From a virus: a stretch of DNA of 29,298 bases. Below the pieces are notes generated by a model, which saw nothing but the letters and a program-made list of their open reading frames with translations, was not told where the DNA came from and searched no databases. The position numbers were made by a program, and so were the translations under genes. Below, in pieces: positions 2,031 through 28,967 of this stretch (positions are counted from its first letter, which is position 1; each line of letters starts with the position of its first letter). The stretch spans positions 1 through 29,298 of IMG/VR virus record IMGVR_UViG_3300035701_007086, one strand, 5' to 3'.

Positions 2031-2050
2031 GATTCCGTTTGGCAAGGAAA

Positions 2051-2070
2051 CCCACGACTTCAGTCGTGGG
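2051..2070. repeat. IscB right-end palindrome, copy 1
   Basis: Perfect inverted repeat CCCACGACTTCAGTCGTGGG, a hairpin type common at IS200/IS605-superfamily ends. The identical 20-mer recurs at 3634-3653 and 23433-23452. It contains the last codons of iscB. Confidence 0.9.
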
Positions 2071-3349
2071 AGGAATTGCCATTCTCCTTCGAATGAGAGT
2101 GTGAGCATGAATATCCGTCCACTCGTTGCACGATCTGACAGTTCTTCCAGCTGGTGGTCGTGACTCCATCGATGGTGAAGGACCCAGTCGCTCGGATCGC
2201 CACTCTCCCCAGATGGGTTCCGATGAACTTCCCCTTCAGGACCATCGCCTTGACCAGATCTCCCGTCCTGAATCCATGAACGATCCTGCTCCCCTTCGGA
2301 CCCGTCCGTGGAAATCCGAACCTGTCCATCCGACAGGACTGACGACTCCCCCATCCCTTCGCTCCGATCGCAAGGATCGTCTGGCTCGGATCGAGCCGAA
2401 CTTTCGATCCCGACTCTCCGACACAAGCCGCATCGATCCAGTGAGCCTTGGGATAGCCTTGCCTCGTTCGATTGAACTTGGTCCGTCCTCCAGTCCCCAC
2501 CTCCAACGGAAGTCCCGTCTGCTTCAAGCGATGAAAGAGGGCCCATCGAGTGGCGTTCACGGCCGCAGCATCCTTCAGTGGTCTCTTGGCTTGCTCCTGG
2601 ATCTTGGGATGTCCGAACTCCTCTGCCGTCATCGTTCCCTTCTCGATGTTGCAATCACGACAGGAGATCGCCAAGTTGGAGACCCTGTTCGTTCCTCCCC
2701 GGCTCCTCGGGGTGATGTGCTCCACCTGCAGTGGAACTCCCATCACACCACAATAGACGCAATTCCTGCTCCACTTCTCGAGTAGGTACTCCCTGACCTC
2801 ATAGCCCTGCAGCTCTCCCTGCTGGTATTCCACTCCGGAGATCTCAGCATTGTCCATCAACTGAGTGTCGAACTTGACCAGCTCCATGGAGATCGATCCC
2901 ACCGGAGACCACCTCGACAACCTCCTGATCCAGGTCTCCACATTCACGACCCGACTCGACAGAGATGGTGGCAGCCAGCTCCCTGGCCTCGTCCGATTCA
3001 GGAACCTCGGTTCTCGATGCCTTGTCTTCCGACTCCGACGAGAACGCCTGATGGTCCTCCTTGCATCCATCCTCTTCTTGATCGTCATCCCTCGATGCTC
3101 GATCTCCCCAGCCCAGACCACCCGATTGGAACTTTCCTCCACCAGGACGATTCCAGTCTTCCGGCTGCCCGGATCGACCGAGACTCGAAGCGTCCTGGGT
3201 TGATCTGCGATCACTTCCTTGAGGATGATGGTGAACGGAAACATCCTCAGCACGGCAGCCCTCTGCCCATCCAACAGCATCCTAGCCTTGGCCGGATGGA
3301 CTGGGTTTTGCGGCTTTCGATTCTGGTCCACGACGAACACTGCGTTCAA
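2060..3349 (-). CDS. iscB: IscB RNA-guided nuclease, copy 1
   Basis: 429 aa, TTG start at 3349 with AGGAG about 7 nt upstream. IscB is the HNH/RuvC nuclease ancestral to Cas9; it uses an omega-RNA encoded just upstream to cut guide-matched DNA. Visible parts, in order: N-terminal PLMP-type domain (about residues 1-50); RuvC-I with D59 (SVDPGSRKTG); an Arg-rich bridge helix (about 91-118); RuvC-II with E156 (SMELVKF); HNH with C197/C200, H211 and C230/C233; RuvC-III with H303 and D306 (AHWIDAA). All expected catalytic residues are present, so it is probably active. The stop codon lies inside the right-end hairpin. It is about three-quarters identical by eye to copy 2. Confidence 0.92.
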   Translation of the reverse strand: MNAVFVVDQNRKPQNPVHPAKARMLLDGQRAAVLRMFPFTIILKEVIADQPRTLRVSVDPGSRKTGIVLVEESSNRVVWAGEIEHRGMTIKKRMDARRTIRRSRRSRKTRHREPRFLNRTRPGSWLPPSLSSRVVNVETWIRRLSRWSPVGSISMELVKFDTQLMDNAEISGVEYQQGELQGYEVREYLLEKWSRNCVYCGVMGVPLQVEHITPRSRGGTNRVSNLAISCRDCNIEKGTMTAEEFGHPKIQEQAKRPLKDAAAVNATRWALFHRLKQTGLPLEVGTGGRTKFNRTRQGYPKAHWIDAACVGESGSKVRLDPSQTILAIGAKGWGSRQSCRMDRFGFPRTGPKGSRIVHGFRTGDLVKAMVLKGKFIGTHLGRVAIRATGSFTIDGVTTTSWKNCQIVQRVDGYSCSHSHSKENGNSSHD

Positions 3350-3660
3350 CTCGATCTCCTGACTGGTGAGACTCTCCCCTCGGGATCGCTCCCTCGGGGG
3401 TGAAGTTTGCCTCGACGATGTGAGAGGAGCTTGTCGTGCTCAGAACATTGGTTCCTTCCCCTCAGAACTTCATTGTCCTGAACGACAGAGCCTGAGACTG
3501 GCGAGCATCTCAGGGTGTCCTGACTCCTCTCACGGAGCCCGATGAGGATTTTCGATCCTCCTGGCTGGGTCTGGTCAACCGAGATCACCGAGTGATCTCC
3601 CGATTTCTGTCGGGGCCTGTTGTGGTGGACAAGCCCACGACTTCAGTCGTGGGTGGTTGA
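3350..3660 (-). ncRNA. Putative IscB omega-RNA, copy 1, with its guide beyond 3660
   Basis: This stretch of about 310 nt holds no gene. It is strongly similar to the leader of IscB copy 2 although non-coding. One stem keeps its pairing while its bases change: CCTGAGA/TCTCAGG (3491-3497 with 3508-3514) here, CATGGGA/TCCCATG in copy 2. A second stem, GAGGAT/ATCCTC near 3544-3560, is conserved in both. In known IscB systems the guide is the flanking DNA at the 5' end of the RNA; here that would be the minus strand just above 3660, which includes the displaced SD. Exact ends are estimates. Confidence 0.7.
3634..3653. repeat. IscB left-end palindrome, copy 1
   Basis: Same 20-nt palindrome as at 2051-2070, followed on the plus strand by TGGTTGAC. 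The remnant at 23433 has CGGTTGAC in the same place and copy 2 has CCGGTTGAC, so this tail marks the left end. Confidence 0.88.
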
Positions 3661-3669
3661 CAACCTGAT

Positions 3670-7720: not shown

Positions 7721-8986
7721 TTAGTCGTTTACAAAACTCCCGGATGTGTAACCATCCATTTGTTGTGAGACCTTGCAGTTTTTCCAACTGGTTGTGATAA
7801 TCCCACCTATGGTAAAAGACCCACTCGATCGAATCACTATCCTCCCTGAGTGAGTTCCTCGGAATTTTCCTGTCAGAACCACCGCCTTCACCAGATCCCC
7901 TGTCCTGAATCCGTGAATCACCCTATTTCCCTTCGGTCCAGTCCGGGGAAATCCGAACCTGTCCATTCGACAAGCCTGGCGACTTCCCCGACCCATCGCC
8001 TTGATTTTCAAGACCGACTGAGTGGGGTCCAGATGAACATTCTCCCCAGACTTCCCGACACAGGCGGCATCGATCCAGTGAGCCTTCGGATAACCCTGAC
8101 CAACTCGGTTGAATTTCGTCCTGCCTCCCGTTCCCTCTTCCACGGGAAACCCGGTGTCCCTTAACCTCTCACCGATCTCCTTCCTCGTGATGTTGACGGC
8201 TGCCGCATCCCTCAGTGGTCTCCTGGCTTGTTCCTGGATCTTGGGGTACCCGAACTCCTCAGCCGTCATCGTTCCCTTCTCGATGTTGCAGTCACGACAG
8301 GAGAACGCCAGATTGGAGATCCGGTTCGTCCCTCCCCGACTCCTCGGATTGATGTGCTCCACCTGCAGTGGAACCCCCATCACACCACAGTAGACGCAGT
8401 TCCGTCCCCACTTCTCCAGCAGGTACTCCCTGACCTCATAACCCCGCAGCTCCCCCTGTTGATATTCCATCCCGGATATCTCGGGATTCTCCATCAATTG
8501 GGTGTTGAACTTGACCAACTCCATGCTGATGAATCTCACCGGAGACCATCGAGATAACCTTCGCACCCAAGTCTCGATGTTCTGCACCCGACTCCGCAAA
8601 GATGGAGGGAGCCATCCCCCGATCCTTCTGCGATTCTGGAACCGACACTGACGGTGTCTCGTCTTGCGATTCCGTCGTGAACACCTGAGAGATCTCCTCG
8701 CATCCATCCTCTTCTTGATCGTCACCCCTCGGTGATCGATCTCAGCCGCCCACACGACCTGATTACTCTCCTCATCGACCAAGACGACTCCTGTCGTCCG
8801 ACTCCCAGGATCGATCTTGACCCGAAGGGGTCTCGGCTCATCCTCGACCGCAACCTTGAGGATGATCGTGAATGGCCTCATCCTCAGAACGGCAGCCTGC
8901 TGCCCTTCCAGCAACTTTCGAGCCTCGGCTGGGTGGACTGGGTCCTGCGGCTTGTGATTCGTGTCAACGACGAGAACTCGATTCAT
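7721..8986 (-). CDS. iscB: IscB RNA-guided nuclease, copy 2
   Basis: 421 aa from ATG 8986 (MNRVLVVDTNHKPQD), chosen because CAGGAGAGAG precedes it and it aligns with the N-terminus of copy 1; the open frame extends 19 codons further upstream into the omega-RNA region. Intact motifs at the same numbering as copy 1: RuvC-I D59 (KIDPGSRTTG), Arg-rich bridge helix (about 91-120), RuvC-II E156 (SMELVKF), HNH C197/C200, H211 and C230/C233, RuvC-III H303 and D306. The coding sequence is complete although the element's right end looks decayed. This suggests selection for nuclease function rather than transposition, or recent decay of the end. Confidence 0.92.
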   Translation of the reverse strand: MNRVLVVDTNHKPQDPVHPAEARKLLEGQQAAVLRMRPFTIILKVAVEDEPRPLRVKIDPGSRTTGVVLVDEESNQVVWAAEIDHRGVTIKKRMDARRSLRCSRRNRKTRHRQCRFQNRRRIGGWLPPSLRSRVQNIETWVRRLSRWSPVRFISMELVKFNTQLMENPEISGMEYQQGELRGYEVREYLLEKWGRNCVYCGVMGVPLQVEHINPRSRGGTNRISNLAFSCRDCNIEKGTMTAEEFGYPKIQEQARRPLRDAAAVNITRKEIGERLRDTGFPVEEGTGGRTKFNRVGQGYPKAHWIDAACVGKSGENVHLDPTQSVLKIKAMGRGSRQACRMDRFGFPRTGPKGNRVIHGFRTGDLVKAVVLTGKFRGTHSGRIVIRSSGSFTIGGIITTSWKNCKVSQQMDGYTSGSFVND

Positions 8987-9302
8987 CTCTCTCCTGCTTG
9001 GTGCGACTCTCCCCTCGGGTTTCCCGTTGGGGGTGATGTTCACCTCGACGATGTGAATGGGGCTTGTTCGGTCCAGGACATTGGTTCCTTGCCCTCAGAA
9101 CTTCATCATCCTGGACGACAGTTGCATGGGACTGGTGAGTGCATCCCATGGTGTCATGACCCCTCTCACGGAGCCCGATGAGGATCTTTCGATCCTCCTG
9201 GCTGGGTCTGGTCAACCGAGATCGCCTTGGCAACCTCACAGAAGTGAAACTGAAGTTTGTTGTTAAACAAACCATCGGTTTTAACTGTGGGCCGGTTGAC
9301 AG
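8987..9302 (-). ncRNA. Putative IscB omega-RNA, copy 2
   Basis: Leader of about 300 nt similar to that of copy 1, non-coding apart from the end of the neighbouring zinc-ribbon gene. The stem CATGGGA/TCCCATG (9125-9131 with 9144-9150) covaries with copy 1, and GAGGATC/GATCCTC near 9180-9197 is conserved. The terminal hairpin differs: 9262-9285 forms a 9-bp stem with a 3-nt bulge (GTTA, AAC bulge, AAACC, loop ATC, GGTTTTAAC). The expected guide lies on the minus strand just above 9300, inside the 3' part of the zinc-ribbon gene. Confidence 0.68.
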
Positions 9303-10235: not shown

Positions 10236-10420
10236 CCGTTCCTTTGAATCTGGGTGAATTGACTCACGCCAATCCCAGCCTCAGTGGTTTGCATCCGGTA
10301 CCGTACTTTCCGGAGAGGAATCGTCGCTCGATGTTCTCCGCCGCTATTGTGTCAGCTCTTCCGGTGTGACCACAACTCCGGCAGCGAAAGACATCTTGGG
10401 ACGGACGATTCCCCCGATCA
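10236..10420 (-). ncRNA. Possible TnpB omega-RNA (reRNA) at the 3' end of tnpB
   Basis: TnpB systems encode their guide RNA across the 3' end of tnpB and the element's right end, with the guide taken from flanking DNA. Here the RNA would end near 10236-10250, placing the guide over the start of the 162-aa gene. This is inferred from family knowledge and position only; no structure was confirmed. Confidence 0.35.
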
Positions 10421-11457
10421 GAGTCGCCACAGCATGGGCACGTGTTGCTGGTGTTCCAGGCCGGGACCGAACGGAAGCCGACACGGTCGTCCTCCGTCCG
10501 CCACTTCAGCCTGTTCAGCCAGTAACGGTAGTTCCATGCACCGATCGAGCGTCGCATGTCTTTGGTCAGGCGACGTCTGACCTTGGTCTTCTTCCCGATC
10601 CCCGCCAACCTCTCCACCACGACGATGTCGAGGTCCTCCCGGGCCGTGATGTCCCGAGCAACCTCATCGATCCGCTGTCTCAAGGCCATCCGGGCCCGCT
10701 GTTGCCCCTTGCTCCCGTGCTTGCAACGTTTGATCCGCTCGATGATGGGCTCGATGTCCGATCCCAACATCTCCCCGGTGGAGAGGGCGGCGAGGTGTTT
10801 GATTCCGGTGTCGATCCCCACCACCATCTTTCCCTCTCGCTTCGGTCCCGTCTCGATCTCGAAGGCGAACTGCACCCAATCGAGCGAGATCACATAGGCC
10901 TGCATCTGCCGCCCTCGGGCCTCCAACTTCTTGAAACGACGATGGAACCGGATGGGGATGTCGATGGAGACTCCATCCCCGACACAACGAATCTCCAGCC
11001 ATGCATCGAACTCCATCGTGTCCTCGGGATCACGCAGGTTGGCGATGGTCGTGGAAACGCTCATCGTCCTGCCCGAGTGATGGGGAATCGTGGGGACGAG
11101 GGTCTCCAGCTTCCTCCGCAGCTTGTGGCACTGGTTGAACTTCCCCTGCCTGAACCTCAGGTTCTCCTCCTCTTGCATCTCTTCACGCCTCACCTTGCAG
11201 GAACTCCGGGAGGAGGAGATCAGGTCGAGGGCCTCCCTTGCGGCCACCTTGCGGAGCCTGGCGGTCAGCCAGGTCTCGGGCAGGTCCACGATGGGCTTGA
11301 GCAACTCCGCCTTGATCGGGGGAGAGTCCATCTCCCAGAAGTGGTCGATGAAGAGGTTGACGACCCGCCCGTACTCCTCCAGGACACGACGGAGGGTAGA
11401 CCGCTTCTCGGCGGTCATCCACTTGGTCGTGCACTTCGAGGAACGGACGATCTTCAT
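10264..11457 (-). CDS. tnpB: TnpB RNA-guided nuclease
   Basis: 397 aa, ATG 11457 overlapping the lipoprotein stop (ATGA). TnpB is the RuvC-type nuclease ancestral to Cas12 and cuts guide-matched DNA. Motifs: RuvC-I D216 (VGIDTGIKHLAAL), RuvC-II E282 (IVVVERLAG), a four-Cys zinc finger C340/C343 and C359/C362 (CPCCG, CRSCGHTG), RuvC-III D369 (RADTIAAENI). All three acidic catalytic residues are present and the length is normal, so it is probably functional. It is translationally coupled to the lipoprotein, an unusual arrangement, since IS607 tnpB normally follows tnpA directly. Confidence 0.93.
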   Translation of the reverse strand: MKIVRSSKCTTKWMTAEKRSTLRRVLEEYGRVVNLFIDHFWEMDSPPIKAELLKPIVDLPETWLTARLRKVAAREALDLISSSRSSCKVRREEMQEEENLRFRQGKFNQCHKLRRKLETLVPTIPHHSGRTMSVSTTIANLRDPEDTMEFDAWLEIRCVGDGVSIDIPIRFHRRFKKLEARGRQMQAYVISLDWVQFAFEIETGPKREGKMVVGIDTGIKHLAALSTGEMLGSDIEPIIERIKRCKHGSKGQQRARMALRQRIDEVARDITAREDLDIVVVERLAGIGKKTKVRRRLTKDMRRSIGAWNYRYWLNRLKWRTEDDRVGFRSVPAWNTSNTCPCCGDSDRGNRPSQDVFRCRSCGHTGRADTIAAENIERRFLSGKYGTGCKPLRLGLA

Positions 11458-11777
11458 TTCCTCACCTGATACTCGAAACTGCTGCCGTTGTCGAATTTCT
11501 TCACGGTGATCAGGCTAAACATCTCACGCCAACCTCCGCTCCCGTCCCCATGTGTCAGGTAGACCCACTGGTTTGGTTTCTCACCCTGAATCGCCGTGAC
11601 GGTCGACCATGCACCGGGGATGCCCCTCATATCGGCGTCAGAACTCAGATACGGACACACTTTTTCCCCGACCACGATGTCCTCGTAGTTTGCAGCCTTG
11701 TATGGGCTACCACACCCACTGATCATCACGCAAAACATCAATGCCAGAAGTGACGCTACAACAGTGATCTTAGCCAT
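11454..11777 (-). CDS. Small lipoprotein encoded between tnpA and tnpB
   Basis: 107 aa from ATG 11777, 1 nt after the tnpA stop. It has a classic signal peptide II: MAKITV, a hydrophobic core (ASLLALMFCVM) and lipobox ISGC with the lipidated Cys at residue 22. The mature part is about 85 aa, polar, with several Trp residues (GAWSTV, NQWVYL, GGWREMF). It should be anchored to the outer face of a membrane. Its stop overlaps the tnpB start by 4 nt. I do not recognise a family. Small phage lipoproteins can block superinfection, so an exclusion role for the lysogen or infected cell is a possible inference, not shown. Confidence 0.82.
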   Translation of the reverse strand: MAKITVVASLLALMFCVMISGCGSPYKAANYEDIVVGEKVCPYLSSDADMRGIPGAWSTVTAIQGEKPNQWVYLTHGDGSGGWREMFSLITVKKFDNGSSFEYQVRK

Positions 11778-11778
11778 C

Positions 11779-12414
11779 TTACCCACTCTCTTTCTTTGCC
11801 TTCTTGTTCTTCCTGTTAGTGGCACTCCTGCGGCCGTACAGCTTGCCTGAGAACGATGAGATGATCGAGATCAGGTCATCCGCCAGTTCCTGTTCGTAAG
11901 ACTTGTCCTCGGAGATGGTGGACAACACCTCGATCTCGGTCCCGTAGCTTCCGAAAAACCTCTCGAAGATCGGGAACTGGAACCTCGTCAGCCTGTCCCT
12001 GTGTTCGATGACGACCACCGAGACCTCGCCACCGATCACCTTCTCGATCAAGGACTTCAGCCCAGCCCGACCCGAGGACATCCCGGAACCGACATCTGCG
12101 ATGATGGGGCCCACCTCGTACTGCTTGCCGATGCAGTGTTCGAGGAGCCTGCCCTTCTGCCGATCCAGGTCTCCCTTGGCCTTCTGCTCGTGGCTGCTGA
12201 CCCGGGAGTAGACTGCGACCTTCCGATCCTTGGCCTCGGTCTCAGAGATGCCCATCATCCCGTGGATGTCGGACAGCCGGAACCTGCGATGACCGCCCGG
12301 GGTCTTGACATATGGGATCTTGCCTGCATCGGCCATGTCCCTGACGACATCCTTGTTCAGGGCGAGGAGGTTGGCGGCCTCATCGAGTCTGATCAGCCTG
12401 TCCGGTGAATTCAT
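11779..12414 (-). CDS. tnpA: IS607-type serine recombinase transposase TnpA
   Basis: 211 aa from ATG 12414 (MNSPDRLIRLDEAANLLALN); the frame is open further upstream, but this start matches the family N-terminus. An N-terminal MerR-like helix-turn-helix (about residues 5-55, ending PGGHRRFRLSDI) is followed by a serine recombinase catalytic domain with the nucleophile in YSRVSSHEQK and active-site Arg residues in HRDRLTRF, as in IS607. No SD is visible; the start lies 35 nt inside the 63-aa ORF, implying translational coupling. Complete and probably active. Confidence 0.93.
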   Translation of the reverse strand: MNSPDRLIRLDEAANLLALNKDVVRDMADAGKIPYVKTPGGHRRFRLSDIHGMMGISETEAKDRKVAVYSRVSSHEQKAKGDLDRQKGRLLEHCIGKQYEVGPIIADVGSGMSSGRAGLKSLIEKVIGGEVSVVVIEHRDRLTRFQFPIFERFFGSYGTEIEVLSTISEDKSYEQELADDLISIISSFSGKLYGRRSATNRKNKKAKKESG

Positions 12415-12571
12415 CGTTGATGATCTTGGTCCAGTGCTGGTAGGTCTCGTTAAACTCCTCGACCGAGGGAACGACCTCGAGCGGTTCTGGATGCTCGAAT
12501 ATCCTGCCATCGCTCAACTCGAACTCGGTTTCCGTGACCCTGACGACCACCGGACTCTCCTCCTTGCTCAT
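12380..12571 (-). CDS. Small acidic ORF heading the IS607 operon
   Basis: 63 aa, ATG 12571 preceded by TAGGAGTCGTGAG. Acidic, with a beta-strand-like first half (VVVRVTETEFELSDGRIFEH) and a helical second half (PSVEEFNETYQHWTKIINDE). The last 12 codons overlap tnpA in another frame. It is the first gene after the strong promoter and probably serves to couple translation into tnpA, or acts as a small regulator. No family recognised. It could also be the 5' part of a resident gene truncated by the element. Confidence 0.6.
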   Translation of the reverse strand: MSKEESPVVVRVTETEFELSDGRIFEHPEPLEVVPSVEEFNETYQHWTKIINDEFTGQADQTR

Positions 12572-17789: not shown

Positions 17790-20700
17790 TCATGCGTCTG
17801 GAAGGATCACCTTCACGGAGTTGAGCAAGCGACCTTCGTGCTTCCTGCTCTTGCTCACCTTGATCTGACCAATCGTCCCACACGCCTCACATCCGTACTT
17901 GCTGTTCGCCCTTCGGACATTGAGGTTGCCACACAGAACACAGACCGAACCCGCCGGCTTCGGACCTGGGATCTGCTCGTCGGTGAACCCCTCCTGCTTG
18001 AGGGCGGCCATCCTGACGAATGTCTTCGGCGATGTGTACCACCTGATGGAAGCCATCATCGGAGGCATCATCCCGCCTCCGGCAGCGCCGGCCCCACCTG
18101 CACCAGCCGCTCCGCCTGCTGGCGGCATCCCTCCGCCACCACCCATCATGGGCCCTGCCTCCGGAGGTGCGGTCGCAGCTCCGAGTCCCTCGGGCCCCTC
18201 CAGCTCGGCTGGCGACTCCGTGTTCTTCTCGTCGTCCGGGGTCACGATGTTCTCGATGCTGATGCGGACCTCATACCTCGTTCCGCAACTCTTGCACTCA
18301 CCACGTCCACCAGCGATCTCGGTGTCGATGGCTCCACATGCGGGACAGACGGTCCCGAGCGGCTTGATGTCGCCGGGAGCTCCGGCCTTGTCGAGATCGG
18401 AATCGTCTCCCTCCAGTCCGCCAGGGCCAGATGCGCCCATCAAGCTGGAAAGACCCGGGGAATCCGGTCCCATCGCATTCGGCGTCGTCGCCGGATCGAC
18501 CATCATCGGATTGGCCGCTGCGGGAGGAGCGGCCCCACCAGCCTGCGCTCCCCTCAACATCGCCTCTCGCCTCTGCTTGCGCTTGGCGAGCGCCATCGGA
18601 GAGAACATCGCATCCTGCTGCGGGCTCATCCCGACCTCCATACCGACCTTCAGCGCCTCGTTCGGAGCCATGTCGACTACCTCGTCAGGAACGGATCTCT
18701 CCGGCTCGGGGGCGGCTGCGAACGTGTTCGCACCAGACTCTTCCGACACGTGCTTCGTGATGCAGCTTCTGATCATGGCCCTGATGTGTCCATCCTCACT
18801 CACATCGAGCTCGGTGAACTGGAAGGTCTCGGGATCAACATGGTAGCTGTGGTCCTTGAGGAAGGCGATGACGTACTGTCTCAGCGAATCGTGGAACTGT
18901 TCGCTGTTGGTGTCGACGCCACCGAGCTCCTCGGCCTCCAGATTGATCTCCTTGGTGATCTCCTCGCTGTCCCTCATGGAGATGGCGTTCTTGGACATCG
19001 AGGCGATGCCATGCTCGACGAGACCGTGTGCCGCCGGGGAACCCTCCGACAACCTCTTGGCTGACCGCCAGATGGCGACGCTCGAGACGCCCGCCTCCTC
19101 GGCCACATCGGCGAGATTGCCGATGATGGATGACCTGACCTCGACCGGATCCGACTCATCCCTCATGCTCAGTCTCTGCCAGAATGCTGCGGACTCCCTC
19201 TTGGCAACCCTCGTCTGGATCGACTCAGGTGACCTGGCCAGCTCGACGAGGGAGACGGCGACCCCATCCTCCATCCTGGAGATCTCACCGAACAGAACAT
19301 CCGGCGTGGCCTTGGTGGCGATTGCGGTCCTGGCGAAGGCGGTGATGGCCGCCTTCACGGAATCCTTCGTCAGATCGCCACCGCCCTCATTGGCGACGAT
19401 GGCACCGAGGGCCCCTCGGATGACATCGGACCTCGACTGCGAGGCCTCCGCCCTGACACCCAACTTGCCGGAGAGCTCCCTGGCTCTCTGGCCGACGACC
19501 TGCTTCATGTTCTCCTGCGACATCGAGGCGATCTGAGAGAGGACCTCGGTGATGTCGCTCGGGACGATGGCAGGATCCTCCACCATCATGTCGGCGAACC
19601 TGTCGATGAGCGCCTGCTCGACGGAGGTCGGAGAGGATTCGACGAGATCGAACTCGATTCGCTCCCTCTGTGCCGTGCGCCTGCGGTACTTGTCGGCCTC
19701 GCTCGATGCGTTGACCTGCTCGAGGAACTCGTCGGACCTCGCCATCATCATCTTGGAAGCCTCGATGACCTCGGTCGGAGATGCCGACGCATCCCTCACG
19801 GCATGCGCCAGTGCACTGATGGTTGCGGAAACGACCCTGTCGGCCGATGCGCTGGAACGCCTGGTCTCGAGCGTGTGCTCTCGGACCTCATCCGGCGTGT
19901 CGGTGCGCTCGTCCTCCAGCTTGTGCTCGTGAACCCTGTCATCGAAACCACGCCTGCCGAGGACCTTGGCGCTGGCATCCTCCAACGTGTGCTCTCGAAC
20001 CTCATCCGGTGTGCCGGTGCGCTTGGCCTCGAGCGTGTGCTCTCGAACCTCATCCGGCGTCCCCTCCCTCTTGTCCTCCAGGGTGTGCTCCCGAACCTCA
20101 TCCGGGGTTCCGGCCCTCTTCTCCTCCAGGAAGTGCTCCCGCTGCGTGTCATCCTTCGAGATCGGCGTCCCGCTGGCCGCCATGACGATCTTGCCGGACT
20201 CCGCCTCGGACATGAACTTCCCGAGCAGCTTCTGTCCCACGATGTGCAGCCTGTCCTGCTTGATGTCCTCGATGTCGTCCTGGGTCATCATGGACAGTGC
20301 GTTCCACTTCGCCGCCCTTCCGTCGATGGAGGCGACGATGTCCCCCGTGCTCGACACGGTGACATCGAACCTCTCGTCATCGGAGGTGAAGTGCGTGTCG
20401 TGCTTCATCCTTGCGGCCTGCTTCCTCATGAGGTTGTTGGCCGTCAGTTCAGAGATTGTCGACATGATTGTGTTTCCTCCTCCTTCTGTGATGTTCGTCC
20501 TGAATCGATCCGGGATCGGAGCCGGACCGATCGCCGCCGTGAGGATCCTTGACATCTCGTTCAGCCTCTCGGCGACCGTGATCTCGCCCCTGCTCCCCGC
20601 CGAGACTCCTCCCGGAATCGTGGTGGGGTTCGGCAGCGCCGATGTCTGGAGGGGTTCTCCTCCCATGGCAGCCGCCTGCTGTGCGGCGAAACTCTGTGGG

Positions 20701-23255
20701 CCCATCATCTGTCCCACATCTCCTGCTGGTCCGTACTCCGGGGCTGGAGCACCACCCGCTGGTGCCTGCCCCGGTTGCTGCGGTGCCGCTCCCGGTTGAA
20801 GCTGAGCGGTCGGTGATGTGACATGCCCTATTCCATCCTCGATCATGTCGCTCATCTGCTGCTGGATCTTCGCCATCGCATCGCTCAAGTTCTTCACATG
20901 AGTGAGATCGATGTTGTCCTTCCAGCTGAGGAGGAACACGATTGCGGCCTCCAGCTTGTTGAGCACATCGTACAGCACATCGAGGACGTTCTGGCCAGAC
21001 ACCGGAGGTGCCTGTGGCATGTTGGCGGGCGGAGGAGGGATCGGTGCCTGAGAGGTCCTGATCATCTGATATGCAAGATCCGCCAGCCTGTCAGCGACCT
21101 TGGCGGATTCCTTGAGGGCCTCGTACCTCTCGATCTCGAACACCGATGGCATCTCGGACATCGTCTTGTCGAGTGCCTCGCTCACCAGGTTGTTTAGCGA
21201 TGTGGCACCCTTCTTGATCTTGTTCGCATGCTCTATGACCTCATCGGCCGAGATCACGGCTTGGATGACGCTCTCGTGGAAGGCTCCGTCACTCACGACG
21301 GATAGCTCGATGAACTTGATGTCGTGATTGACCTCGTACACCAGCTCGTTGTCGATCTTCTGCCCCTTCTTCGATCCCGAGTCGACCTTGCCGCTCCACT
21401 TCTTGCCCTTGTGATCCTTCAGGTGATCACAGTTGTGTACCGAAATTCCGTTAGCCACATAGCTGTTCTCGCTCTCAACCCTGAGATTGTAGACGGGGCC
21501 AACATAGTAGACATTGGACATCTCACGGATGTGAGAAGCAATTCCCCGTTCTGTCCAGATCGACTGATGATGTTGTTTCGCATCAGGATCGAAAACCCTC
21601 CGACTGAACTCCACGAGTTGATCGGCATCCCCCTTCGTGATTTTCATACAGTGGATGTCCAATCTCTCATCCCTATTCGTTGGTCCTCCCTGTTGAGTCG
21701 TAGAGAACATGTTGGCCCTGATGCCGACTTTTCTAGCAAGTAGCACCAGTTGCGAAATCAGATCTTTCGATGCGAGGTCTACCCTGATATCTCCTCGTTT
21801 TGCTCCGCTCGATTGGTACCCATCACCATCGATGACGGCTCCCAATAGAACTCGAATCCCATCATCAGACAGAGCATCGATGACCTCTCGGCTGATTCGT
21901 TTGCATTTGGCACCACAGCCAACCACTTGCCGGAGAAAAGAGGCGAGATCTGGATTCGTCCAACAAATGCTCAATCCATTCGAATCTCCACCCCGATTCT
22001 CATAGGTTTTGGGGTCATACTCAGATGTCAGGTGAGGACGGACATCATCACATGCTTGAAGAATATCTGCTGCAACAGTATTCTTTTCGGCCATCGAAAG
22101 GCTGAAACCAACCAATCTATCCTTGCGTTCAAGATGCCCCTCTGCAGCGTAGTAGCCAATGATTCTGGCCACCGACAACGGGATATCGTCTTTTGATTTC
22201 GAGGCCTCCCATACCGGAGATTCGATCAGGTCTCCTTTTCTCAACTCTCCAGCAGGTACGAATTCGAAATCTCTGGGTTTGTGGTCTCCATCACATGACG
22301 ATCCAGTTTCTCTAGACTTAAGAGCGCAGAGATCCAACTCTCCAGGACGACACCAACGACGAGCGTCCTTGTCACACCGGAATCCATCTTGTCTCCCTGC
22401 CCAAATTGGATGATTCTTGGTGACAAGCAATGGTGCAGACTGAATGGATGAGTAGAATGAAACGATCTCCTCATCAACCTGTCGTTCGAATGTTTCGAGG
22501 ACACGACGAGTCATTCCCAGATGGGTCATCACCTCGTCTCCCACCACGATATCTTCGATCGATCTCAGGGAACCATCAGACATCGTGATGGATGTGCCTT
22601 TCGCAAGGCACCATTCTTTTTCTGAAGTGGCCTTGTTGTCACATATGCTACATGTACTCCACTCTACAGAACACCCCATGCTCACATCGGAGAGATAACC
22701 CTCTCGGATTCCCCTCGCCATCTGTGGCCATGCCTGAGCGTCCACGAAGAATGTGGTCCAGATGCACTTGTTATCTGGGTCCAACTCTGCGAATACCACC
22801 TCTCCCTTCGCCTGCTCGACATCGTTGTTCTCATGATTGGCGTAGACCTTGCACCCCTCGAACGTCTTGAAGGCCTGAACCTTCTTGCCGTCCTTGGAGC
22901 TGGTGATCTCCCTCTCCTTGATGAATTCATCCCATGGGAAGTAGTCACCATTCTCGTTGATGGTGTCGGCATCGATCGCTCGTGCCCTCACCCACAGGAA
23001 GTCATCAGACCTGCCCTCCATCTCTCCAACGATGTCGAAGCCCTTCTCCAGGTATCGATCGAGGACCTCTTCGGGTTCCTCGTACAAGCTCTGCTTGCCT
23101 ATGCGCTGCACCTTGGTTGGGTCTCTGTAAGCTGCCATCCTGATCTGCGTGTCCGCATACCTGATGCTGAAGAGCTTCTCGCCGTCCGTCGTCAGAATGC
23201 TGTACTCGACATTCTCGGGAAGCTTCCACGAGCTCCCCGTCTTGACCATCGACAT
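17790..23255 (-). CDS. Prohead protease fused to a scaffold-like protein, with one intein
   Basis: 1821 aa precursor, 1428 aa after splicing; ATG 23255 with AGAGGAGGTG upstream. The N-terminal part is a herpesvirus/T4 gp21-like prohead protease: ENGDYFPWDEF (101-111), probable catalytic His141 (VYANHEN) and Ser192 (VSMGCSV). An intein occupies residues 216-608. The spliced junction restores a zinc-type site (C202, C205, then C609 and H611). Beyond it: helices, Pro/Ala-rich linkers, a strong in-frame internal start at M931, four to five 16-residue repeats, and two C-terminal zinc ribbons (CPACG...CKSCG; CVLCG...CEACG). The protease matures the capsid by cleaving scaffold. Fusion of both in one ORF, rather than separate genes, is unusual. 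Confidence 0.82.
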   Translation of the reverse strand: MSMVKTGSSWKLPENVEYSILTTDGEKLFSIRYADTQIRMAAYRDPTKVQRIGKQSLYEEPEEVLDRYLEKGFDIVGEMEGRSDDFLWVRARAIDADTINENGDYFPWDEFIKEREITSSKDGKKVQAFKTFEGCKVYANHENNDVEQAKGEVVFAELDPDNKCIWTTFFVDAQAWPQMARGIREGYLSDVSMGCSVEWSTCSICDNKATSEKEWCLAKGTSITMSDGSLRSIEDIVVGDEVMTHLGMTRRVLETFERQVDEEIVSFYSSIQSAPLLVTKNHPIWAGRQDGFRCDKDARRWCRPGELDLCALKSRETGSSCDGDHKPRDFEFVPAGELRKGDLIESPVWEASKSKDDIPLSVARIIGYYAAEGHLERKDRLVGFSLSMAEKNTVAADILQACDDVRPHLTSEYDPKTYENRGGDSNGLSICWTNPDLASFLRQVVGCGAKCKRISREVIDALSDDGIRVLLGAVIDGDGYQSSGAKRGDIRVDLASKDLISQLVLLARKVGIRANMFSTTQQGGPTNRDERLDIHCMKITKGDADQLVEFSRRVFDPDAKQHHQSIWTERGIASHIREMSNVYYVGPVYNLRVESENSYVANGISVHNCDHLKDHKGKKWSGKVDSGSKKGQKIDNELVYEVNHDIKFIELSVVSDGAFHESVIQAVISADEVIEHANKIKKGATSLNNLVSEALDKTMSEMPSVFEIERYEALKESAKVADRLADLAYQMIRTSQAPIPPPPANMPQAPPVSGQNVLDVLYDVLNKLEAAIVFLLSWKDNIDLTHVKNLSDAMAKIQQQMSDMIEDGIGHVTSPTAQLQPGAAPQQPGQAPAGGAPAPEYGPAGDVGQMMGPQSFAAQQAAAMGGEPLQTSALPNPTTIPGGVSAGSRGEITVAERLNEMSRILTAAIGPAPIPDRFRTNITEGGGNTIMSTISELTANNLMRKQAARMKHDTHFTSDDERFDVTVSSTGDIVASIDGRAAKWNALSMMTQDDIEDIKQDRLHIVGQKLLGKFMSEAESGKIVMAASGTPISKDDTQREHFLEEKRAGTPDEVREHTLEDKREGTPDEVREHTLEAKRTGTPDEVREHTLEDASAKVLGRRGFDDRVHEHKLEDERTDTPDEVREHTLETRRSSASADRVVSATISALAHAVRDASASPTEVIEASKMMMARSDEFLEQVNASSEADKYRRRTAQRERIEFDLVESSPTSVEQALIDRFADMMVEDPAIVPSDITEVLSQIASMSQENMKQVVGQRARELSGKLGVRAEASQSRSDVIRGALGAIVANEGGGDLTKDSVKAAITAFARTAIATKATPDVLFGEISRMEDGVAVSLVELARSPESIQTRVAKRESAAFWQRLSMRDESDPVEVRSSIIGNLADVAEEAGVSSVAIWRSAKRLSEGSPAAHGLVEHGIASMSKNAISMRDSEEITKEINLEAEELGGVDTNSEQFHDSLRQYVIAFLKDHSYHVDPETFQFTELDVSEDGHIRAMIRSCITKHVSEESGANTFAAAPEPERSVPDEVVDMAPNEALKVGMEVGMSPQQDAMFSPMALAKRKQRREAMLRGAQAGGAAPPAAANPMMVDPATTPNAMGPDSPGLSSLMGASGPGGLEGDDSDLDKAGAPGDIKPLGTVCPACGAIDTEIAGGRGECKSCGTRYEVRISIENIVTPDDEKNTESPAELEGPEGLGAATAPPEAGPMMGGGGGMPPAGGAAGAGGAGAAGGGMMPPMMASIRWYTSPKTFVRMAALKQEGFTDEQIPGPKPAGSVCVLCGNLNVRRANSKYGCEACGTIGQIKVSKSRKHEGRLLNSVKVILPDA
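19855..20142 (-). repeat. 48-nt tandem repeats in the protease/scaffold gene
   Basis: These encode four or five copies of a 16-residue unit, TPDEVREHTLEDKREG and variants (EAKRTG, EDERTD, EEKRAG), with one interrupted by a divergent stretch (SAKVLGRRGFDDRVH). The unit is predicted helical and strongly charged, and repeat number may vary between relatives. Confidence 0.85.
20463..20485 (-). promoter_or_regulatory. Strong internal SD and in-frame ATG in the protease/scaffold gene
   Basis: AAGGAGGAGG (20485-20476) lies 10 nt before an in-frame ATG at 20465 (MSTISELTANNLMRK), residue 931. The spacing and strength equal those of true gene starts here. Initiation would give an 891-aa scaffold without the protease, comparable to lambda C/Nu3. 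Confidence 0.6.
21432..22610 (-). other. Intein with LAGLIDADG endonuclease in the prohead protease
   Basis: 393 aa (residues 216-608), starting Cys (CLAKGTSITMSDG) and ending SVHN before a Cys (CDHL). Block B-like LLVTKNHPIW and block F-like YYVGPVYNLRVESENSY are present. The DOD motifs IIGYYAAEG (365-373) and LLGAVIDGDG (470-479) mark a homing endonuclease. All key splice residues are present (C1, block-B H282, N608 and +1 Cys), so it should splice. Confidence 0.9.
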
Positions 23256-23404: not shown

Positions 23405-26400
23405 CTAGTCATGATTCTGTTTGGCAAGGAAACCCACGACTTCAGTCGTGGGCGGTTGACCCTCGACATTCGCCCTCCTGTTCCCGTTCAGCATCTCTAC
23501 CGCAACCCTCGTTCCCATCGACTGAACCTTCTGATTGATCGCCTTGGAGATGACCGCCATCACCTCGTTCAACCTCTTCTCGATCTCCTCCTCGGTGAAC
23601 CTGAGGACCAACCATCCCTGCGATGCCAGGTAGGCATCCCTGCGCTTGTCCTTCTCGATGGAGCTCGGATCGGCATGCCACTCTCGCCCATCGGCCTCCA
23701 CCACGACCTTGATCTGGGGGAATGCGCCGTCCACCCTCATCCGAGGGTCCCCTCCGACCATGTACTGCGCCCAGAAGTCGTATGGCAATCTCTGGGACAG
23801 GATCGCCTTGTAGAGGGCTTGCTCGACACTGGTGAAGAACGACTTCTGCTTGGGGGCCTTGCCATCACCCCTCGGCGGCCCGAATGAGACCCTGTTCATC
23901 CCGTCATGGGACATCAGGGTGAGATCGGTGATGTCTGGATCGTCCGGGAGACTCCCTCGATGCCCATCTCCAGATACCACGATGTTGGACGATGAGCCAT
24001 TTCGCCCACCATTCTGAACCACCCTCTCGATCAGCCCATTCCTATCGGCAATGACCGTCATGTAGTTCTCGTAGAGCTGGTTGGCACTCGGCCCCATTCC
24101 GATGGGAGTCGGCATCCCTCCGGATGCATCTCCCCCACCCGGAGGTGCCGTTCCTCCGGGAGGAGATCCTCCCCCAGGAGGTGGCGGAGCTCCACCTGCA
24201 CCCATGGTTGGAGGAGGCATCATCCCTCCCATCCCGCCCATGTCCCCACCGGCGGGCATTCCCCCGTACCCCGCACCCATCCCTCCCCCTGGCGACCCGA
24301 GCTCGAGCTGCGGATTGCTGAGGACCGTCGACATCTCCTCGAGCCTTATCCTCTCGACCTCCTGGTCGAAGTCGACATCGAGGGCCTCCCCGAGGAACGT
24401 CTGTGCAGAGAGATCCCCCGCCTTCCTGGCCTCCCACATGTACTGGACCTTCGGCGTGTTGTCACGGAGCCTGAGATCCGTCCACTTGACCGTCGGATAG
24501 ATGTACTCGTCCTCTCCTCGCTCGTTCGTCTTCGTGAATCCATTGAACATCGCTATCGGACGGAAGACCTTCTCCTCGATCCAACCGGAGATCTTCTTCC
24601 TGACCGTCTCCAGCCTCTTGGCGAGGACCTCGATTCCGACCTGGGCGTTGGCATATGTCGGACCCTCGCCCGACAGGATCGCCTTGCTCAGTCCGAGTCC
24701 GTCGATCATCTCTCCCTCGATGAGATCGAATTCGTTGGTGAGCTGGAGGATCTTCCCCGAGTTTCCATGTATTCCGATGAAACCATCCTGACGAGTGATG
24801 AACATCCCAGTGGGGACGGTGAAACAAAACACCCAGTCCTGATACTCTTTCTTGTGGATGTTCCTAGACCTTATTGGATGAGTCCCATCTCCTCGCCGCT
24901 CTGTCCAGTTGATCCTATATATCTGTTTGTGATGAGGTTCATAACGGGCTTCATCATCTGTCATCGTGACATCATGACCAAGTTTGAAAGCAATCTCCTG
25001 AACGGCGTCTGCGAGATGTTTGGATGTGGTGGAGTATCTGGTTTTTTCGAACCCGTTGTTGGTCTGAGATATATCGCCATCTCCCTCCACCAACGCATCG
25101 AGGAAGATCTTCAACTGTTCAGATGGAAGACCCATGATCCAACGGGGAACTCGCTTCTCATCACACCCATGTCCATATTCCTTCCTCAAATACTCCGCCA
25201 ATTTCGTGTTGTGGATCTTGAATGTGGTTGTCGAGTTGTCATAGCGGTTGTCTTCCCAGGTCTTGACTTTGCTCCCGAAACATCTCTTCATGGTTGAATC
25301 GATGTTCTCGTGAACCTCTCCCCCATTCTGATAGATGTACACGCTGCACATCTTGTTATCGTATGGTTTCGCCTGTCTCTGCAGGGTCCCCTCTGAAAGG
25401 TAGTATCCGAGGAACCTGAGGAAATCGTCCAGCTCGATATCTGACAGCATGTCAACACCGGATTCTTGGTATGGAAGAACATCCGGGATTGTCCCCTCCC
25501 ATGATCCAAGACAGGTGAGGAAACGGTCGTGATCGGTGATCTCATCCGCCCTTGCCAGCATCCACTCCCCATCGTACTTGCCCTCATCGTTGTTCCATCT
25601 TCTCTTCTTGGTCCACATCCTGTGGTTCGGAGTGACGGTGATGCCATACTTCTTGGCGGAGAAATTGATCAATGGTCCAAACTTGTCGGAATCATAATCA
25701 TACTGATGTCTCTCGATGTATGGAGCATATACGATCCCCTCGATCTCCGGATCGTAACATGCGATCAGATCTTCCTCCGTCACATCGTCGAAATGTTTGA
25801 ATCCATCTTTAGTCAAAACCTCCGCAGATTTTTCCAGACAGCTGCCCACCCACTCATAATCAAATGCATGATGTGTCACAAGTGTCAGAAGTGGGTCATT
25901 GGCGACCTCCGCCAGCCGCTCCTGGACATCGTTGATGTCCTCCTGGGATGCAGGTCGCTGCTCGCTGCCGATCTTGACGATCTTGATCGGAACGATGTGC
26001 CGCTCTGCGATCAGGTACTGGGCCTGTCGCAGCTTGTCCTTGTAGACCAGCGTCGGGAACAATCTCCTGATGATGGACTGACCATATGTCTGATATGACG
26101 ACGACCCATGTTTCAGGTGGGTGATGGTCAACGGATCCATCAGGATGGGAAGCCCCTTTCTCACGGCCTCCCTCGTCTGTTGCGGAAGGGCCTGGAAGAT
26201 GTCCTTCGGCTGGCCCGTCTGGACGAGCCTCTTCAGGTCCGCATTGGGGAGCAGGTAGATCGGCGGCTCCGGCATGATGTTGCTGAACGGAGAGACCTCT
26301 ACCTCTTCGGGATTGAGGACGCTGATTCCCCTCCATGTCGCACCCTTGTGATCGCACTCCTTGCCGCCCTGATCGACTCCACTCCCTCCACACTCCTCGC

Positions 26401-28552
26401 AGTCGAGGTTGCACATGACGAAGGCGTCGCCCTTGCCGTAGTATTCCCTCAGGATCTGCGGAAGGGACTCCTCGAGCTTGATCCTCTTGATCAGGCCCTC
26501 GTAGAAGTCCTTGACGGACGCATCTGCACATTCCAGCTCGATGTTGCTACATGGAAACTCACTGTTGTGACATGCTATCTTGTTGACGGTGTATGAATGT
26601 TCGTCTTCGATCTCTAGATCGTAGACAGGTCCGCTGTAATGCTTGCTCGCAATTCCGATGACACGCCGTTCTACATAACCACCACGATCATCATTTCCAT
26701 CAACGATCGATGTTGGAGAAAGAAGAGAATCTCCCTCTCTGATTTCTTGGGCTTGCACCCATTCGACTGTTTCCTCGGTTGATCTCAACAACTTGTGCCC
26801 GAGAGTACATTCGATGGGGTCAATCCCGTCGGCCGAGATTGTGAGTATTTCCTCAGAGGCATCCCTCGACATCGCTCGAAGAACCTTGCCAGGGTTACCG
26901 TCACCTCGAATGACCTCATCTCCATCGTTGATGTCACAGATAGGTTTGCTGGTCCCATCTGCCATCATCACCTGCATATCAGGAGTGAAACAATAGAAAT
27001 CGATGGCGATGGCGATGCGAGCCTCATTTGACATCCAGTACTCACAGTTGGAGACCACCACGAAATTGGCTAGGAACTTGTGAACACCGGTCTCGTTGTC
27101 AACCCTGAGGTCGTATACGAACCCATCGTAATCCTCATCTTCGATCTCCATGATGCGATGGAACACCTTGTCCCCAACCATGATCGATCGGCTGGAGTTG
27201 GCATGTTTGCGCTCCACCTGATCCGTCTTGTAGTTCCCGAATGGGATCGATGAGGATGCGAAGAGATCGTTGGCCTCCACTCCATTGATGTAGATCCTGT
27301 AGATGTTGCCCTGATCTTCCACCGTAGGAATGCATCCAAGTCCAGTCAAGATGAATTTGAGTTGAGAGATCAATCCCAAATTCACGCTCTTGATGGCGAT
27401 CTGACCATTGGGGGATTTTCCGCCATCTCCGAGGATGAATCCGATCACAAGTTCCCTTAATAGCTCCGGCTTCTGGGACAGGAGAGTTTCGGAGATCCTC
27501 TTCTCCTTCGAACCATGTCCACAGTGGGTGAGGAAGAGATCGGACACTTCCTTCCTGTAGATGTCCAGGGACTTCCATTCTCCTAGCTTCCCATTTACGG
27601 TCCTGAGGTTCGGTTCGACATCGAATTCATCCTTCATGATCTGAGTGATGTGATCGATCAGCTCGGATGTCCCTTTCGACCCGAATGTCAGACGGATCGA
27701 TGATGGGATCTTCTTCCCGTTTCTGTGTTTGAATGTCAAGGTCCCGTCCGCCAGATGAAGACCAAACAACCTCATCATCTCTGGAGAGAAATCCTCCCTC
27801 TGTCCAGTCAGGATGTTAGTGGGGCAATAGAGGAAATCACCGACATTTAACTCATCAGATCTCACCTCTTCGATCTCGACGCTTTTTGGAAGTTGTTTCC
27901 ATCCGTCACAGTGATGGGTTTCACACAACTGTTTCTCTCGACAGAAATTGAACCCGCACGCATATCTGCAGGAGAGATGACCCTCCTTGACCCGATACAG
28001 GATATGATCTGGAGTGGTCTCCAATTTCCAACTGCTTCCCCTCACCTTGATTGATCTCATCTTGCCAGAGTAGAACCGGCGGCTGATGACGGTCACCTCA
28101 CCAGGGACACCGTCTGATGTCATGATCGAATCGCCAGGAAGCAGCTCATCGATCCTTGATTGTGTCAAATCAGCCATAGTTACTAAGGTTTTAGGACCAA
28201 GACACCACTTATAGACCTCCCTACGAACTGTTGGTATCTGCCATGAAGATGGCGTATGATAAGGTGAATAAAATGACGGAGATGTGAAGATTGCGCCAGA
28301 ACTCGTACTTATTCCTTGTCTGACCATTCCTCCCGTCTGGACGGTCGCAGACCCTGCCAGATGGTAGTTCATCTCTGGCACACCCGAACGAATCATCCCA
28401 TCCTGTCCCGAAGGAACGGATGATCTCTGATACATCATCCTCGATTGGGCGGATGCGACCTCGCCCATCGATGCTGGATTCCCGGCGAAAACCCGACCTC
28501 CGGACAGGTTGGTCCCTATCCTTCTTGGTCCCTGCATTCCAGCCATGCGCAT
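23405..28552 (-). CDS. Portal protein with three inteins and a C-terminal DUF559 nuclease domain
   Basis: 1715 aa precursor from ATG 28552 (MRMAGMQGPRRIGTN), chosen because AGGAGG precedes it and it follows the upstream stop by 16 nt; the longer open frame to 28696 overlaps that gene. Spliced length is 826 aa. Portal-type segments include NEARIAIAIDFY joined to SEFPCSNIELECAD, a Cys cluster (C714, C718, C721, C733), YGQSIIRRLFPTLVYKDKLR, and GKILQLTNEFDLIEGEMIDG. Inteins occupy residues 117-502, 521-663 and 905-1264. After a Gly/Pro/Met-rich linker comes a DUF559/Vsr-like endonuclease domain (1571-1674). The portal ring is the DNA entry and tail attachment point. The final 17 residues or so are encoded by an IscB end remnant. 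Confidence 0.87.
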   Translation of the reverse strand: MRMAGMQGPRRIGTNLSGGRVFAGNPASMGEVASAQSRMMYQRSSVPSGQDGMIRSGVPEMNYHLAGSATVQTGGMVRQGISTSSGAIFTSPSFYSPYHTPSSWQIPTVRREVYKWCLGPKTLVTMADLTQSRIDELLPGDSIMTSDGVPGEVTVISRRFYSGKMRSIKVRGSSWKLETTPDHILYRVKEGHLSCRYACGFNFCREKQLCETHHCDGWKQLPKSVEIEEVRSDELNVGDFLYCPTNILTGQREDFSPEMMRLFGLHLADGTLTFKHRNGKKIPSSIRLTFGSKGTSELIDHITQIMKDEFDVEPNLRTVNGKLGEWKSLDIYRKEVSDLFLTHCGHGSKEKRISETLLSQKPELLRELVIGFILGDGGKSPNGQIAIKSVNLGLISQLKFILTGLGCIPTVEDQGNIYRIYINGVEANDLFASSSIPFGNYKTDQVERKHANSSRSIMVGDKVFHRIMEIEDEDYDGFVYDLRVDNETGVHKFLANFVVVSNCEYWMSNEARIAIAIDFYCFTPDMQVMMADGTSKPICDINDGDEVIRGDGNPGKVLRAMSRDASEEILTISADGIDPIECTLGHKLLRSTEETVEWVQAQEIREGDSLLSPTSIVDGNDDRGGYVERRVIGIASKHYSGPVYDLEIEDEHSYTVNKIACHNSEFPCSNIELECADASVKDFYEGLIKRIKLEESLPQILREYYGKGDAFVMCNLDCEECGGSGVDQGGKECDHKGATWRGISVLNPEEVEVSPFSNIMPEPPIYLLPNADLKRLVQTGQPKDIFQALPQQTREAVRKGLPILMDPLTITHLKHGSSSYQTYGQSIIRRLFPTLVYKDKLRQAQYLIAERHIVPIKIVKIGSEQRPASQEDINDVQERLAEVANDPLLTLVTHHAFDYEWVGSCLEKSAEVLTKDGFKHFDDVTEEDLIACYDPEIEGIVYAPYIERHQYDYDSDKFGPLINFSAKKYGITVTPNHRMWTKKRRWNNDEGKYDGEWMLARADEITDHDRFLTCLGSWEGTIPDVLPYQESGVDMLSDIELDDFLRFLGYYLSEGTLQRQAKPYDNKMCSVYIYQNGGEVHENIDSTMKRCFGSKVKTWEDNRYDNSTTTFKIHNTKLAEYLRKEYGHGCDEKRVPRWIMGLPSEQLKIFLDALVEGDGDISQTNNGFEKTRYSTTSKHLADAVQEIAFKLGHDVTMTDDEARYEPHHKQIYRINWTERRGDGTHPIRSRNIHKKEYQDWVFCFTVPTGMFITRQDGFIGIHGNSGKILQLTNEFDLIEGEMIDGLGLSKAILSGEGPTYANAQVGIEVLAKRLETVRKKISGWIEEKVFRPIAMFNGFTKTNERGEDEYIYPTVKWTDLRLRDNTPKVQYMWEARKAGDLSAQTFLGEALDVDFDQEVERIRLEEMSTVLSNPQLELGSPGGGMGAGYGGMPAGGDMGGMGGMMPPPTMGAGGAPPPPGGGSPPGGTAPPGGGDASGGMPTPIGMGPSANQLYENYMTVIADRNGLIERVVQNGGRNGSSSNIVVSGDGHRGSLPDDPDITDLTLMSHDGMNRVSFGPPRGDGKAPKQKSFFTSVEQALYKAILSQRLPYDFWAQYMVGGDPRMRVDGAFPQIKVVVEADGREWHADPSSIEKDKRRDAYLASQGWLVLRFTEEEIEKRLNEVMAVISKAINQKVQSMGTRVAVEMLNGNRRANVEGQPPTTEVVGFLAKQNHD
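23409..23460. mobile_element. Solo IscB end (scar or MITE) at the portal 3' end
   Basis: 23409-23452 repeats 43 of 44 bases of the right end of IscB copy 1 (2027-2070), including the full 20-nt palindrome at 23433-23452. It is then followed by CGGTTGAC, the outer tail seen at left ends. The order right-outer flank, one palindrome, left-outer flank is what recombination between the two identical end palindromes of an IscB element would leave. The portal frame reads through it. Confidence 0.78.
23531..23842 (-). other. DUF559/Vsr-like nuclease domain fused to the portal C-terminus
   Basis: The pattern of this PD-(D/E)XK family is clear: SVEQALYKAIL with E1577, RVDGAF with D1608, VVVEADGREWH with E1619, KDKRRDAYL, and the ending GWLVLRFTEEEI. 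The putative catalytic residues are present. The domain follows a long flexible Gly/Pro linker, so it is a separable module. Confidence 0.8.
24761..25840 (-). other. Portal intein C, with LAGLIDADG endonuclease
   Basis: 360 aa (portal residues 905-1264), starting CLEKSAEVLTKDG and ending GIHGN before Ser. Block B ITVTPNHRMW is clear. Endonuclease motifs FLGYYLSEGT and LDALVEGDGD are present. The residue before the final Asn is Gly, not the usual His, a known variation. The joined extein reads DYEWVGS-SGKILQLT. Confidence 0.88.
26564..26992 (-). other. Portal intein B, mini-intein
   Basis: 143 aa (portal residues 521-663), starting CFTPDMQVMMADG and ending KIACHN before Ser. Block B is IECTLGHKLL and block F is GPVYDLEIEDEHSY. 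No endonuclease domain. It lies only 18 extein residues from intein A. Confidence 0.88.
27047..28204 (-). other. Portal intein A, with LAGLIDADG endonuclease
   Basis: 386 aa (portal residues 117-502), starting CLGPKTLVTMADL and ending FVVVSN before Cys. Block B LETTPDHILY is clear. DOD motifs LFGLHLADGT and VIGFILGDGG are present. The penultimate residue is Ser rather than His, and a Cys/His-rich insert lies at C195, C199, C204, C210 and C215. Confidence 0.88.
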
Positions 28553-28568
28553 TTCTGTTCCTCCTGCT

Positions 28569-28967
28569 TCAGCGTGGCGGGACGGTGGGATATGTGCTCT
28601 TTGATACAGGACCCATCGGGGGCTGAGCATCCCACCCATCGTTGGGACTCGTGGGACGCTGGTCTGGTCGGAAAGATGCAGGAACCGTTTGTTCACCGCT
28701 CATTTCGAGACTTGCTTCCCCACTTTGGTCCGTGTTCACCTTGGGTGGGGTGTGCATGTTGCCATCCCGGTTGACGGTGGATCTGAGCTTGTCCTCCGTG
28801 GACATTTCGTTGGGGTTCGTCTTGCGGATCTCCATGGCTCGCTCATTATCCGTCTTCTCCATGGACGGGGCGATGATCCCTTCAGAAGTTTTCCTGACGA
28901 CTCCTCCAGGAATGTAGTTTCCACTGAGTGCTGATAATACCGATAGCTTGGCATTGCGCCACCACAT
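28569..28967 (-). CDS. Hypothetical protein, 132 aa, upstream of portal
   Basis: ATG 28967 was chosen (MWWRNAKLSVLSALSGNY) because AAGGGGTGAT lies 6 nt upstream, overlapping the previous gene's stop; a GTG at 28976 is possible but sits inside that SD. The N-terminal 25 residues look like a short amphipathic or membrane-binding helix; the remainder is polar, Pro-rich and probably disordered (KTNPNEMSTEDKLRS, GPVSKSTYPTVPPR). No motif recognised. It ends 16 nt before the portal start, so it is in the portal operon. Confidence 0.6.
   Translation of the reverse strand: MWWRNAKLSVLSALSGNYIPGGVVRKTSEGIIAPSMEKTDNERAMEIRKTNPNEMSTEDKLRSTVNRDGNMHTPPKVNTDQSGEASLEMSGEQTVPASFRPDQRPTSPNDGWDAQPPMGPVSKSTYPTVPPR

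Follow-up and report, generated by a model that had tools for sequence, protein, structure and literature searches.

Between two strains of Haloquadratum, elements of the IS605 type have been cut down to 52-bp forms that consist only of their termini (Dyall-Smith et al., PMC3119063). The core deletions run between end palindromes of 19-22 bp, one TnpB element being reduced in this way from 1500 to 52 bp, and six strain-specific insertions of ISHwa23 are all of the 52-bp form; the authors suspect that some of these short forms can themselves move (PMC3119063). In Borrelia, IS605 stem-loops at the 3' ends of lipoprotein genes have been reported to be conserved (PMC2775950). Here we describe a unit of comparable build that derives from an IscB element with a HEARO (omega) RNA and is read in frame at the end of a phage portal gene.

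The DNA analysed (the window) is the whole of a 29,298-bp virus record, and all copy counts therefore cover one 29-kb fragment of the phage. The portal gene occupies positions 23405-28696 on the minus strand (phrog_16240 portal) and contains apparent inteins and a C-terminal DUF559 domain (PF04480, Intein_splicing and LAGLIDADG_3 matches). At its 3' end, minus strand 23460-23413 is composed of the opening 8 bases of an IscB left end, GTCAACCG (23453-23460, minus strand), a single 20-nt palindrome (23433-23452, no strand assigned) and the last 20 bases of the right end, TTTCCTTGCCAAACAGAATC (23413-23432, minus strand). The left arm is identical at 7 of 8 positions to the left end of the element IscB 1, and its GTCAAC, the start (position 1) of the HEARO RNA model, stands at the correct spacing from the palindrome. 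The palindrome is identical to both of those of IscB 1, and the right arm matches at 19 of 20 positions. Of the HEARO RNA, the remnant retains no more than the initial 8 bases plus the palindrome. Beyond the right arm lie ATGA (23409-23412, minus strand), a single C and the portal stop TAG (23407-23405), so that the minus strand of the gene ends AAT GTC GAG GGT CAA CCG CCC ACG ACT GAA GTC GTG GGT TTC CTT GCC AAA CAG AAT CAT GAC TAG.

Exactly three copies of the palindrome CCCACGACTTCAGTCGTGGG are present in the window, at the right end of IscB 1 (2051-2070), at its left end (3634-3653) and at the portal 3' end (23433-23452), where shuffled sequence is expected to contain none. When the two ends of IscB 1 are fused in silico, 46 of 48 bases are identical to 23413-23460, differing at two positions, while the best of 100 shuffled windows reached 28. 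Much of the sequence-only reading of this locus is thereby borne out: the portal end repeats the right end of IscB copy 1 (23409-23452 against 2027-2070, 43 of 44 bases), the outer arm of a left end is present (CGGTTGAC, 23453-23460), and the order right-outer, palindrome, left-outer is that which a palindrome-to-palindrome deletion would leave. However, the length of 52 bp that it gave needs correction to 48 bp (23413-23460), as ATGA at 23409-23412 is the target/TAM and lies outside the element. These matches make it almost certain that the portal C-terminus (the last ~16 codons) consists of the fused outer ends of an IscB/HEARO element, read as coding sequence.

The nearest full-length relative of the remnant is found in the same window. 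IscB element 1 (2031-3661, minus strand, 1631 bp) is intact, with an omega RNA running from its left end (3400-3661, minus strand; RF02033, 127 bits) and an iscB gene with RRXRR (PF14239) and HNH domains (2060-3349, minus strand), the stop codon of which falls inside the right-end palindrome. A second, divergent copy comprises an iscB gene (7721-9043, minus strand) without a recognisable right-end palindrome and a HEARO RNA (9033-9300, minus strand; RF02033, 107 bits). As the RNAs at 3661-3400 and 9300-9033 both start with GTCAAC, this motif marks the beginning of the IscB left end. In copy 2 (7721-9300) the HEARO RNA is present and the left palindrome is degenerate, and its iscB gene ends just before the AGGAGG of the next gene; this copy may be fixed in place. 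At 10264-12510 of the window, a small lipoprotein-like ORF (11454-11825) separates a TnpB gene from an IS607-type serine recombinase.

The right end of IscB 1 relatives from other virus contigs is made up of the palindrome, TTTCC and 13-15 more bases, and is followed by ATGA. Empty sites were rebuilt by removing IscB 1 and two related elements (L037 and L038) between GTCAAC and ATGA, and it is this reconstruction that sets the boundaries of IscB 1. Removal of IscB 1 joins TTCAGGAGGATCAGGTT to ATGATCATGACC, which gives the Shine-Dalgarno sequence and start codon of the next gene (AGGAGG-N8-9-ATG), and removal of L037 joins GAAGGAGCATAAC to ATGAAAATAACG (GGAG-N6-ATG); both elements thus sit exactly between a ribosome-binding site and a start codon. 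For L038, a single continuous open gene is obtained. In all three cases the genes are restored without duplication, and these clean empty sites identify ATGA as flank, in agreement with the NTGA TAM of IsrB (PMC9581776). ATGA or GTGA follows the right end in IscB 1, L037, L038 and most of the archaeal units considered below, and the ATGA at the portal occupies the same place.

The portal frame (28696-23405) passes through the remnant and ends at TAG, as the sequence-only reading had it. The 48 bp amount to exactly 16 codons. With ATGA counted as target and not as element, the insert is exactly in frame and, since 48 is 16 x 3, the portal frame reaches its original stop; the earlier 52-bp figure included ATGA and so hid this exact length. 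The reconstructed empty portal ends in NVEDD (in longer form RRANVEDD) and the occupied portal in NVEGQPPTTEVVGFLAKQNHD (in longer form RRANVEGQPPTTEVVGFLAKQNHD), both before the same TAG.

Bacillus phage G is the nearest named relative of the portal, and likewise of the major head protein. In 20 related IMG/VR portals DUF559 is kept while the tails vary in length and sequence, and none of the 20 contains the remnant residues. In a predicted structure of the last 160 portal residues, DUF559 is modelled with confidence and the tail scores very low (pLDDT 31-37). The variable tails of the relatives and the low-pLDDT model indicate that the remnant extends an unconserved, probably disordered end, and its codons are therefore probably tolerated rather than needed or selected. 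The statement that an RNA-guided element had become protein-coding in an essential virion gene is accordingly true of the frame, but overstated in that the residues lengthen a variable, probably disordered tail.

Other features of the portal ORF (1763 aa) were observed. It apparently contains three inteins (roughly residues 166-552, 568-711 and 956-1305), of which the second, at ~568-711, is short and lacks an obvious endonuclease domain. Intein matches also occur in several related portals, and the next gene (17790-23255, head protease) has another apparent intein. The C-terminal DUF559 (Vsr-like nuclease family, 23480-23890) is conserved among the phage-G-like portals L004-L026, in which its D, H, RD and W residues do not vary.

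Classified by its sequence, the portal unit is a terminal-only PATE of the kind derived from IS200/IS605-group elements: left and right ends are fused around one near-terminal palindrome, the two palindromes of IscB 1, which stands for the parent (2051-2070 and 3634-3653), are identical, and there are no terminal inverted repeats and no target duplication, with ATGA at the right side only. It resembles the terminal-only PATEs HqIRS46 and ISHwa23 of Haloquadratum walsbyi, in which fused ends of ~50 bp, left by deletion between two identical near-terminal palindromes, likewise surround one palindrome. Those, however, are TnpB/IS1341 elements or non-coding PATEs on the chromosome of an archaeon, whereas the portal unit stems from an IscB/HEARO element, lies in a phage-G-like virus and is read in frame by a gene. 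The Borrelia stem-loops share with it an isolated end hairpin at a gene 3' end with few bases coding, but differ in that only 8 nt are coding, a single end is present instead of fused ends, and the elements are of the TnpB type (PMC2775950). With IscB/IsrB (OMEGA) elements carrying HEARO RNA the remnant has in common the left end, palindrome, right end and NTGA-type flank, while the body of the omega RNA and the nuclease gene are absent. The sequence-only reading had set an excision scar against a free-living MITE; terminal-only units are a published class (PMC3119063), and the two alternatives are less distinct than it supposed.

Units of the same build were found in archaea. The genome of Methanogenium sp. 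MK-MG contains ~18 dispersed 47-bp units, each consisting of GTCAACTA, a palindrome and CTTCCTGCCTGCTTTCTTC before GTGA, and a few more occur in other genomes of the same order. The Methanogenium units have unrelated flanks and are mostly between genes; several are nearly identical throughout, and there are few full-length left ends in that genome. They share with the portal unit an 8 + 20 + 19 bp build, a GTCAAC left arm, GTGA/ATGA at the right and a palindrome that is nearly the same, but differ from it in their many copies, their mostly intergenic positions and the sequence of the right arm. Their parent is also less definite: searching the archaeal genomes for HEARO RNA and IscB produced no more than weak matches, which do not pin it to IscB. 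Listed as the loci L069-L088 (Methanogenium sp. MK-MG and Methanocalculus), the ~18 dispersed 47-bp single-palindrome units with a GTCAAC left arm and GTGA/ATGA at the right form a terminal-only element family. At a separate locus in Methanocalculus chunghsingensis (L057, G001:C13:28567-28767), two such palindromes are separated by ~180 bp in which there is no nuclease gene, a candidate two-palindrome PATE.

A further virus contig (L089, 265-323) carries a 59-bp terminal-only unit of the IscB type inside a gene. In this case the unit causes a frameshift that gives the protein a different C-terminus; without it, the gene would end in RKIYEDAYRDYQEVSADMIDGESH before its stop. The locus L098 was considered as another copy of the remnant and rejected, as it has the palindrome and TTTCC but no left arm. 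By eye, no iscB gene is obvious beyond the left end in L049, L059 or L063.

The 48-bp unit is present once in the 29-kb fragment. Searches of viral contigs with the exact unit and with the right end gave no match, and the exact unit was not found in GTDB genome contigs, where the left end gave 10 archaeal matches, none of them a copy of the portal unit. Phage and plasmid collections yielded partial, palindrome-centred matches only, those in plasmids being mostly haloarchaeal. A query with the portal C-terminus recovered no relatives from viral contigs, whereas the portal core did; the closest portals are ~45% identical, and among these relatives neither a full IscB nor an empty site was found at the portal codon.

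From the anatomy, boundaries, frame and element identity, which are observed, we infer a history of insertion and deletion at the site. The inserting IscB element, almost the same in sequence as IscB 1, would have entered at an ATGA that precedes the portal stop by two codons, its left end facing the coding side. Its core would then have been lost by recombination or replication slippage between the two identical 20-nt end palindromes, leaving a terminal-only unit of left arm (8), palindrome (20) and right arm (20) and changing the portal end from NVEDD to NVEGQPPTTEVVGFLAKQNHD, on a variable and probably unstructured tail. Insertion near the stop, palindrome-to-palindrome core loss and an in-frame remnant together are probably the best explanation overall, and loss of the IscB in place is likely.

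The unit might instead have arrived already shortened, as a terminal-only PATE mobilised in trans by a Y1 transposase, the site never having carried a full IscB; we regard this as possible but on the whole unlikely. The dispersed Methanogenium units show that units of this build can be numerous, and the all-short ISHwa23 insertions, with the mobility suggested for such forms, point the same way (PMC3119063). However, the fragment holds one copy, the exact unit is absent from the viral and genome collections searched, the same fragment offers a full-length donor that is nearly identical, and the 29,298-bp window showed no Y1 transposase. IS200/IS605 transposition is understood to use two hairpins, which counts against movement of a single-palindrome unit.

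It is very unlikely that the palindrome has been retained for a phage function, for example as a 3' mRNA hairpin or as part of a useful C-terminal peptide. In the fold of the transcript the palindrome does form a hairpin, with a second one of 17 bp immediately past the stop (z = -5.3), and the Borrelia stem-loops, reported to be conserved, offer a precedent (PMC2775950), but no relatives carry the palindrome, so there is no conservation to show, the second hairpin can explain the 3' end structure by itself, and the tail is disordered in the model. No consensus terminator was called near the portal stop. An assembly artefact fusing an IscB left end to a right end is hardly credible: although the record is a metagenomic virus contig and the palindromes are identical, two positions of the unit deviate from IscB 1, its flanks are unique and make up an ordinary DUF559 portal end that a strong hairpin follows, and a 20-bp repeat is shorter than the usual assembly k-mers.

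Palindrome-to-palindrome loss, our preferred reading, would have a consequence for the nuclease of the element. The guide of IscB is taken from the sequence left of the element and the TAM lies on the right, here ATGA. Clean excision would rejoin the guide target with the ATGA TAM and make the site cuttable by IscB, whereas the 48-bp unit would keep target and TAM apart, leave GTCA beside the target and thereby escape cutting by that nuclease. Since the remnant separates target from TAM, core deletion may be a nuclease-proof way to lose the element, which would make losses of this kind more frequent than others. A doubtful proposal, advanced tentatively, is that such deletion is the favoured nuclease-proof route of IscB loss, preventing re-homing by that guide, and that leftover units of a length divisible by three add a recurrent peptide, PTTEVVGF, to the ends of genes.

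The portal unit is a real, well-preserved remnant of a kind already known; its setting, as in-frame sequence that closes a virion gene, is new, and the functional consequence is modest. The IscB boundaries are now fixed for this group, at GTCAAC on the left and just before ATGA on the right, which makes guide and target predictable. A decay route known for IS605-type elements is extended to IscB elements and to phage genomes, and a remnant is seen to be absorbed by a virion gene without breaking it. Protection of the site from the element's own nuclease is a directly testable idea.
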